From Victivallis vadensis (GTDB lineage: Bacteria > Verrucomicrobiota > Lentisphaeria > Victivallales > Victivallaceae), in contig NZ_QEKH01000026.1 of the NCBI RefSeq assembly GCF_003096415.1, forward strand, positions 1 through 64,000: a DNA stretch of 64,000 nt, written 5' to 3'. Every line of letters starts with the position of its first letter. Positions within the stretch are counted from its first letter, which is position 1. The notes under the pieces are model-generated. The model worked only from the letters and a program-made list of their open reading frames with translations. It ran no database searches and was not told the origin of the DNA. The position numbers and the translations under genes are program-made. This document shows positions 48,057 through 50,539 of this stretch, piece after piece.

Positions 48057-49268
48057 CTATTCGCCGACCAGTTTGCCGTTGTCCACCGCGGCGTTGCGCC
48101 GCTTGAAAGTGGGGATGTCCAGGTCTTCGCCGTTCCACAATACCGGCATGGTCTTCTCCATGATCCCTTTGGAAAGCGGTTCCAGAAGCGGAAAGAGTTC
48201 GAGCTGCGTGGAGGCTCCGTCGGCCGCTCCGGCGGCGGCGCGGCCCCGGCGCGGCATCCGCGAGGTCTCCTTGCGCATCGCCTCCACCGTCACGGTTTCG
48301 GCATCGAATCTGATCGTAACCGCGGTCAGCTGGAGCATGCCGCTCCACTCCTCCCCGGTGGAAGCTCCGATAATCAGTTCGGCCCCCGGTTTCACATAGC
48401 GGCCGGCCAGCTCCAGCGCAGCTTTGGTCTCGCCGATCGAGAGCTCCGGCCCGCCCAGCAGCGAAAAAACCACCGCATCGGCTTCACCGAGCTTGTCGGC
48501 GCCCCCCAGCAGCGGAGAGTGAAGCAGTTGCTCCATCGCGGCCTCGATCCGGCCATTGACTTCCGCGCTTTCGACCAGACCGACGCCGATGCTGCAGTAA
48601 CTTTTCTTGCGCTTCAGCAGCGCCACGAAGTTGTTGAAATCCGCCGCCAGCAGATTGCCGTGGCGCAGCACCGCGGTCAGGGCCAGCACCGTCCGCGAAA
48701 ACTCCCGGTCGGCAAGCCGGAACGCCTCGCTGAGCGGAGTGGTCGAGTCCAGAATCGAAAAAAGCAGATCGTTCGGCAGGCACAATACCGCATCGGCGAG
48801 CCCGAGCAGTTCGTTCTTCACCGTCTCCTCGGCCGTCTTGCGCTTGCTGTGTCCCTCCAGCGTGAAGGGAAGCGTCACCAGAAACAGCGTCGGAATTTCC
48901 AGCTTCCGCGCCACGCTCAACACCACCGACACGCCGCCCGAAGCTGTTCCCCCGCCCAGTCCGCCGACCACCAGCAGCATCGAAGTCCCGGCCAGCATCC
49001 GCTCCAGCGCGGCCCGCTCATGCGCCAGCGCCCGCTGCCCGTCCAGCACATTGCCGCCGCAGCCGCGTCCGCCGCGCCAGCGGGCGCCGGCCAGCAGCAT
49101 CGAACCTTCCGGCAGATTCAGCCCTTCCAGGCCCCGCCGGTCGGTATCCACGGCCAGCAGCCGCAGTGACGCGGCGGCCGGACTCCCGACAAAACCGCGC
49201 AGCACCCGGCACCCGGCGCCGCCGATTCCGAGTACGGTAACCATTTTATTCTCAACAGGATTTTCCAT
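48057..49268 (-). CDS. ftsZ: Divergent cell-division GTPase FtsZ
   Basis: This 403-residue protein aligns with FtsZ along its length: GIGGAGCRVLRGF (14-26), the nucleotide loop GGLGGGTASG (102-111), PNDLLF, the SPLLGG segment and a C-terminal DIPTFKRR (384-391) matching the FtsA-binding tail DIPAFLR. Key positions differ. The tubulin signature GGGTGTG reads GGGTASG, and the catalytic T7 loop NxDFAD reads AADFNN (A208, D210, N213), so two of three catalytic-loop residues are replaced. It sits 2 nt after ftsA, so it is likely the division FtsZ with altered GTPase behaviour. The linker is short. Confidence 0.85.
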   Translation of the reverse strand: MENPVENKMVTVLGIGGAGCRVLRGFVGSPAAASLRLLAVDTDRRGLEGLNLPEGSMLLAGARWRGGRGCGGNVLDGQRALAHERAALERMLAGTSMLLVVGGLGGGTASGGVSVVLSVARKLEIPTLFLVTLPFTLEGHSKRKTAEETVKNELLGLADAVLCLPNDLLFSILDSTTPLSEAFRLADREFSRTVLALTAVLRHGNLLAADFNNFVALLKRKKSYCSIGVGLVESAEVNGRIEAAMEQLLHSPLLGGADKLGEADAVVFSLLGGPELSIGETKAALELAGRYVKPGAELIIGASTGEEWSGMLQLTAVTIRFDAETVTVEAMRKETSRMPRRGRAAAGAADGASTQLELFPLLEPLSKGIMEKTMPVLWNGEDLDIPTFKRRNAAVDNGKLVGE

Positions 49269-49270
49269 GA

Positions 49271-50539
49271 TTACCCCCTCCTGTTCCAGAGCTTTTTCCG
49301 GGTCCTGCTCACCAGTGAATCCACCATGTCGAGCAGGCTGCCGAAACCGCCGCGGCCGGAACAGCCCGGCTCCATCGCATTGTATGCCACCGCCAGGCGC
49401 AGCGCCCCCCAGACCGTGCTGAACCGCGGATTCTCCGCCAAGGCGACCGGGTCGCCGTTTTCCAGCGGCTGGGCAATCCGGCAGCTCATTTCGAACACCT
49501 CCCGGAACATGGCTCCAGTCCGCTCGAACATCGCGCCGCCGCCGGTCAGGATGCCGCCCGCCTCCAATTGGCTCAATGCGTTTTTCTCATTCAAAATCTG
49601 CTTGATGATCTCAAAGGTCTCCCGCAGCCGCAGGTCGATGATGGTCTCGAAGGAGTTCAGCGGAATCCGCCGGGGCGTACCCACACTGCTTCCCGGAAAC
49701 TCCAGGCAGTCGCGATGCTCCCGGATCGCCCGGCTCAACGAGCCGTCCTCGACCAGCTTGCGGCAGACGCCGATATTCAAATCCAGTCCGACCGCCAGAT
49801 CGTTGCAGACGTGGTCGAAGCCGACCTGCAGCACGCCGGAAGCGCGCACGCCGGAGTTGCATTCGACATCGTATTCGGTCGTCCCGGCGCCGATGTCCAC
49901 CAGCAGCGCCCCGCTGCCGCGCTCCTCTTCCGAAAGGATGCCGTAGTCGGTCGCCAGCGGCGCAAACACCGGATAGATCATCGAATCCTCGAAGCCGGAT
50001 TCGCGCACGATCGTCCTGAAATTTTCCAACCGGGTGGTAACGCCGTGCACCAGATGTACATAGGCATCCAGCCGGCGGCCGCTCTGAAGCAGCGGATTGC
50101 AGACCGGGCGGCCGTCGATCGCGAAGCAGGATTCGGAGATATTGATGATTTCCCGCCCGGCCGAAACGTGCTGGTCTTTCGCATTTTCAACCGCTTCGGC
50201 CCGCTCCTTTTCGGTCACGACGCGCTGCTCGCTCCTGATCGTGGCGGTGCCGACGCCCTGCATCGACTCGATGCCGCAGCCGGTCACCGGAACGATCACC
50301 AGACGGCTGTTGCCCAACTCCCGGTCCGAACTGCGGTCGGCCTCCTCCAGCGCCGAGCCCAGCAGCTCGAACGCTTTATCCATATTGTAGATTTCGCCCT
50401 TGACGATCGAGCCCTCGCTGGGCACGCATCCCTGGCCGATGACCTTGACCTTGCCGTCCGGCAAGGCTTCGCCGACCAGCACGCAGATCTTGGAACTGCC
50501 CAGATCGACGGCAGTCACGATTTCCCGGTTGTTGAACAT
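49271..50539 (-). CDS. ftsA: Cell-division actin homologue FtsA
   Basis: This 422-residue protein has the actin-like phosphate loops: VTAVDLGSSKICVLVGE near the N terminus, ALLVDIGAGTTEYDV and GGILTGGGAMFE, and the SHS2-like 1C insertion. The C terminus LLDMVDSLVSRTRKKLWNR is an amphipathic membrane-targeting helix. It anchors FtsZ to the membrane. The gene pair stands alone rather than in a dcw cluster. Confidence 0.95.
   Translation of the reverse strand: MFNNREIVTAVDLGSSKICVLVGEALPDGKVKVIGQGCVPSEGSIVKGEIYNMDKAFELLGSALEEADRSSDRELGNSRLVIVPVTGCGIESMQGVGTATIRSEQRVVTEKERAEAVENAKDQHVSAGREIINISESCFAIDGRPVCNPLLQSGRRLDAYVHLVHGVTTRLENFRTIVRESGFEDSMIYPVFAPLATDYGILSEEERGSGALLVDIGAGTTEYDVECNSGVRASGVLQVGFDHVCNDLAVGLDLNIGVCRKLVEDGSLSRAIREHRDCLEFPGSSVGTPRRIPLNSFETIIDLRLRETFEIIKQILNEKNALSQLEAGGILTGGGAMFERTGAMFREVFEMSCRIAQPLENGDPVALAENPRFSTVWGALRLAVAYNAMEPGCSGRGGFGSLLDMVDSLVSRTRKKLWNRRG

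Follow-up and report, generated by a model that had tools for sequence, protein, structure and literature searches.

A sole FtsZ with replaced T7-loop residues in Victivallis vadensis, and the variability of the same positions across Verrucomicrobiota

The ftsZ gene found in the window (the whole 64,000-nucleotide stretch of Victivallis vadensis DNA analysed here) raises the question of how a division protein can work when part of its GTP hydrolysis site is replaced. Current models of how bacteria divide give hydrolysis-driven treadmilling a central place. In S. aureus FtsZ, the key residues of the composite active site (D46, Q48, R143, N208, D210 and D213) are termed conserved across species; D210 swings in and positions the catalytic water, the substitutions N208L, D210N and D213N abolish assembly, and the R143K and Q48A variants assemble with a GTPase activity that is ~6-fold lower (PMC8936486). 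An earlier note on the V. vadensis gene had pointed out that its T7 loop reads AADFNN, with the residues at E. coli positions N207 and D212 replaced, that the GGGTGTG signature reads GGGTASG, and that the protein ends in an FtsA-binding tail. The features discussed below are collected in Table 1.

Table 1. Features of the ftsA-ftsZ locus of V. vadensis (positions in the window)
Feature	Position	Strand	Remarks
ftsA	49271..50539	minus	directly upstream of ftsZ; TIGR01174 220 bits (cut-off 175.9)
AGGAGG, ribosome-binding site of ftsZ	49277..49282	minus	within the last ftsA codons; ftsA-ftsZ gap 2 nt
ftsZ	48057..49268	minus	403 aa, ATG start; sole copy in the genome
T2 loop AVDTDRRG, residues 39-46	49131..49154	minus	N43->D, D45 kept, Q47->R; positions 43 and 45 show no variation among 66 relatives
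T4 signature GGGTASG, residues 105-111	48936..48956	minus	canonical form GGGTGTG
K142 replacing catalytic R142	48843..48845	minus	from sequence alignment
T7 loop AADFNN, residues 208-213	48630..48647	minus	N207->A, D209 kept, D212->N; aligned with E. coli and 66 relatives
C-terminal block SKGIM..T.PV..GEDLDIPTFKRR with the xIxIDxGK extension	48060-48183		no change at G368, D384, P386 or R390 among 66 relatives
FtsA-binding peptide DIPTFKRR, residues 384-391	48096..48119	minus	D, P and R unchanged in all 66 relatives
12-residue extension NAAVDNGKLVGE beyond DIPTFKRR	48060..48095	minus	relatives: xIxIDxGK

By lineage, gene position and tail, the V. vadensis protein is an FtsZ ortholog. Both FtsZ Pfam domains score above their cut-offs (PF00091 73.7 bits, PF12327 36.7 bits), and a phmmer search of the PDB with this sequence as the query returned only FtsZ and its close kin. 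The NCBIfam equivalog model for ftsZ, TIGR00065, gives 156.6 bits, below its curated cut-off of 295.2, which places the protein outside that family as curated. The AlphaFold2 model (pLDDT 88) has the FtsZ fold: its nearest solved chains are all FtsZ, with Z up to 36.2 over ~305 residues; within its core, confidence is lowest in the T7 loop (mean pLDDT 69). The FtsA-binding peptide, together with ftsA only 2 nt upstream, marks the protein as the FtsZ ortholog, and ftsA adjoins ftsZ at 113 of the loci with enough flanking sequence. The genome also carries three FtsW/RodA-type genes. The tail described in the earlier note is a real FtsA-binding peptide, although the protein continues for 12 residues beyond it, and an extension of this type is conserved in relatives.

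Alignment with E. coli FtsZ sets N207-V-D209-F-A-D212 against A-A-D-F-N-N, so that N207, D209 and D212 correspond to A208, D210 and N213 of V. vadensis, and the pattern N-x-D-x-x-D is absent; the same register is seen in congeners, and the two replacements reported before are therefore confirmed. The PDB entries for FtsZ of P. aeruginosa, S. aureus and Thermobifida served as a control, and all read NxDFAD. A slip in the alignment register was ruled out, as relatives bridge the two states (e.g. AADFSD in the congener G061), and a sequencing error is excluded because the D212 position is N or S in 6 of the 7 genomes of the genus Victivallis, with D in the remaining one. The altered T4 signature likewise holds up, and the tubulin signature pattern [SAG]GGTG[SAT]G does not match it. 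The alignment further revealed three departures that had not been mentioned earlier, N43->D, Q47->R and R142->K, so that only D45 is kept from the active-site trio D45/Q47/R142. In known filaments the T2 loop, which carries two of these changes, pairs with T7 across the subunit interface.

A canonical second ftsZ elsewhere in the genome would offer a simple way out, and the earlier note had proposed to look for one. The V. vadensis genome (5.2 Mb, 99.5% complete) contains a single PF00091 gene, and a profile search for type B tubulin, as we term a second, divergent tubulin that occurs in this class, gave no match in it, although the same search does detect that tubulin in 58 other genomes; a second ftsZ was accordingly rejected. 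We also rejected type B tubulin as a missing catalytic partner in V. vadensis, since the search found it neither there nor in the other Victivallaceae listed; it is present in 58 of 129 Lentisphaeria genomes. The model of type B tubulin is nearest to TubZ (Z 28.9, versus ~25 for FtsZ). Its genes are chromosomal (loci L122-L123, L125-L134 and L136-L140), and the protein has a T7-like motif, LDGHIDxEDF, with invariant acids. Directly upstream of nearly every copy lies a conserved gene for a protein of ~110 aa (e.g. L122:3438-3767, L123:2710-3036, L139:3394-3738 and L129:3427-3792), which has no Pfam match and one very weak match to a winged-helix domain. The order of the two genes resembles that of tubR-tubZ in plasmid partition systems. 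With its TubZ-like fold and conserved small upstream gene, type B tubulin is not an obvious replacement for FtsZ.

The replaced residues do not mark a gene in decay. Compared with that of a congener, V. vadensis ftsZ differs by 0.25, 0.18 and 0.49 at codon positions 1, 2 and 3, which indicates purifying selection; together with the conserved operon and nucleotide pocket, this led us to reject a pseudogene or decaying copy. In 66 relatives the T2 Asp pair (Asp41 and Asp43 of V. vadensis, E. coli positions 43 and 45), the GxGG of T3, the GxG of T4, E138 and the PND motif are all invariant or nearly so. When positions of the core are ranked by variability in the same 66 relatives, that of N207 falls at the 75th percentile, that of D212 at the 63rd and that of D209 at the 17th; the first two vary like ordinary core residues and the third is conserved. 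The conservation of the pocket and of the FtsA peptide implies selection on the binding of nucleotide and of FtsA, but not on two of the three T7 residues. The intact pocket of V. vadensis FtsZ also argues for continued use of nucleotide, because the pocket decays as well in the family whose FtsZ seems to have ceased to be a GTPase.

We therefore regard the V. vadensis protein as a division FtsZ with a relaxed and rewired hydrolysis site, which would bind GTP and probably hydrolyze it slowly with the help of one T7 carboxylate, an explanation that we consider somewhat better than even. According to this proposal, FtsZ would bind GTP and build FtsA-tethered filaments; a single T7 carboxylate, D209 in V. 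vadensis, could suffice to hold the attacking water; hydrolysis and turnover would persist at a pace below that of E. coli; and the T2 changes (the class-wide N43->D and the lost Q47) might reflect a subunit interface in which the potassium site formed by N207 and Q47 has fallen out of use. GTP binding and the link to FtsA are supported by sequence conservation, while assembly and slow hydrolysis are only probable. If the results on S. aureus mutants were simply transferred, V. vadensis FtsZ would be predicted to form no polymer at all; against this prediction, D209 is retained, and purifying selection acts on ftsZ in its place next to ftsA. By analogy, the damage that changes of N207 or D212 cause in S. 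aureus and E. coli does count against our explanation.

The replaced residues, the sole gene copy and the retained FtsA peptide all stand, but V. vadensis FtsZ is not a special case: within the family, the class and much of the phylum, N207 and D212 vary freely. All three residues N207, D209 and D212 are kept in just 1 of 40 Victivallaceae. N-x-D-x-x-D is kept by a single sequence among the 93 full-length FtsZ of Lentisphaeria and by 12 of 158 from Verrucomicrobiota as a whole (11 of 65 in classes other than Lentisphaeria). In those other classes N207 is kept in 45 of 65 sequences, and the usual losses are of D212 (NLDFAT, NVDFTA) or of D209 (KLGLDD, RMGIADL). When the T7 columns are left out of tree building, at least 17 changes of state are required at position 209, 19 at 212 and 19 at 207; these counts are blind to the direction of change, and loss is their natural reading because the canonical state prevails outside the phylum. 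Outside Verrucomicrobiota, D212 is also lost in two FtsZ sequences of Bryobacterales (Acidobacteriota; L190, L192), which read NVDFAH. The KLGLDD and RMGIADL loops, in which D209 and N207 are lost and D212 is kept, occur in family f31 (L157, L158, L214, L215), whose FtsZ proteins have very long, low-complexity tails and whose genomes encode BtubA/B-like tubulins. No paper in the literature searched dealt with T7 loss in Verrucomicrobiota, although it may have been noticed earlier. A 2007 paper on V. spinosum termed its FtsZ canonical, yet listed eight departures from conserved positions (PMC1845146). TraDIS showed that V. spinosum ftsZ is essential (PMC12283558).

Such a distribution could also mean that GTP is hydrolyzed in a fully normal way and that the lineage never strictly needed N207 and D212, with contacts to water and metal supplied by other residues of the phylum's interface, such as the Asp found class-wide at E. 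coli position 43. The replacement N43->D is consistent with this idea, being universal among the 93 full-length Lentisphaeria sequences and present in 12 of the 65 sequences from other classes; so is the prevalence of D212->T/A, the most frequent state in several further families of the phylum. We nevertheless consider it improbable: covariation between T2 and T7 (positions 43/47 versus 207) is not significant in independent pairs, which are so few that the comparison is underpowered.

A more serious rival, which we still judge unlikely, is that V. vadensis FtsZ serves as a GTP-binding scaffold without meaningful hydrolysis, its static FtsA-tethered filaments recruiting septal wall synthesis while other factors provide turnover. 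This rival takes up the idea of static polymers put forward in the earlier note, which the E. coli D212 mutants do not by themselves establish. N207, D212 and R142 are changed together in V. vadensis, and in E. coli the D212G protein, with GTPase activity reduced about tenfold, forms static membrane rings (PMC7320174) and supports division in strains with unlinked suppressors (PMC5405962). Sequences lacking both acids also exist: the eight rows of our alignment with neither acid comprise one alignment gap and seven Lentisphaeria, which fit a scaffold of this kind, and five of the seven come from genomes with the second tubulin. On the other hand, D209 is retained in V. vadensis and most of its class, and all 40 Victivallaceae have an acid at 209 or 212 (at least one). 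Nor are both acids missing in any of the 64 scorable sequences from other Verrucomicrobiota classes. For these other classes the pattern gives a raw Fisher p of 9e-6, in which common descent is ignored; a dependent-evolution (Pagel-type) test gives p 0.13, and when independence is simulated, so few rows with neither acid arise with P 0.085. The tendency to keep one carboxylate is thus suggestive, not significant after phylogenetic correction, and can be used as a lead only; as a proven rule that both acids are never lost, it was rejected for want of statistical support on the tree.

The T7 residues are termed conserved across species and required for assembly and hydrolysis of FtsZ, yet their loss recurs phylum-wide, and a single FtsZ lacking part of the T7 site in a dividing phylum amounts to a natural experiment. 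It bears on which residues are indispensable, on the universality of treadmilling and on how PVC bacteria could give up FtsZ; the textbook mechanism of FtsZ may be less universal than believed. Cultured members of Verrucomicrobiota make such questions testable. One tentative scenario, which we would sooner doubt than accept, is that FtsZ in this phylum was freed from the two-aspartate GTPase, with T7 loss as the first step and, in one family of Lentisphaeria, reduction to a ~250-aa FtsA-binding adaptor without the polymerisation half as the next, and that such forms may be intermediates toward the loss of FtsZ in the related Planctomycetes and Chlamydiae.

Reduced relatives of FtsZ were observed in two groups, whose genomes carry type B tubulin. 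In family f9 (L200, L201, L202, L203, L207, L208) many of the FtsZ equivalents are "mini-FtsZ" proteins of ~247-267 aa, with longer open frames in a few cases, e.g. L208, and the N-terminal GTPase half is joined straight to the FtsA peptide ENLDIPTYQR; they have neither the T7 loop nor the C-terminal domain, and in several the GGGTGTG signature is lost. Genus g47 (L204, L205) encodes a 357-aa FtsZ-like protein, in which the nucleotide pocket is not recognisable and the C-terminal end reads KVPTYKRLGIKV.

Compared with canonical FtsZ of E. coli, S. aureus and B. subtilis, the V. vadensis protein shares the fold (Z ~36), 24-29% identity, the pocket, D45 and D209, the FtsA peptide and the ftsA-ftsZ gene order; it differs in N207, D212, R142, N43, Q47 and GGGTGTG, all of which are changed, and in falling below the TIGR00065 cut-off. 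With FtsZ of other Verrucomicrobiota classes it has in common the non-canonical T7 found in most of them, whereas N207 and N43 are usually kept there and some of their tails are very long and disordered. Beta-tubulin also has no acid at position 212 (K254), and its site is non-hydrolysable. The alpha/beta pair is, however, a heterodimer, and searches of the V. vadensis genome with PF00091 and the type B profile found no second subunit. The closest experimental counterparts are the D212G and D212N mutants of E. coli, in which the same position is altered; in V. vadensis, unlike in these mutants, the change is natural and inherited, is accompanied by further changes, and occurs in a gene under selection.
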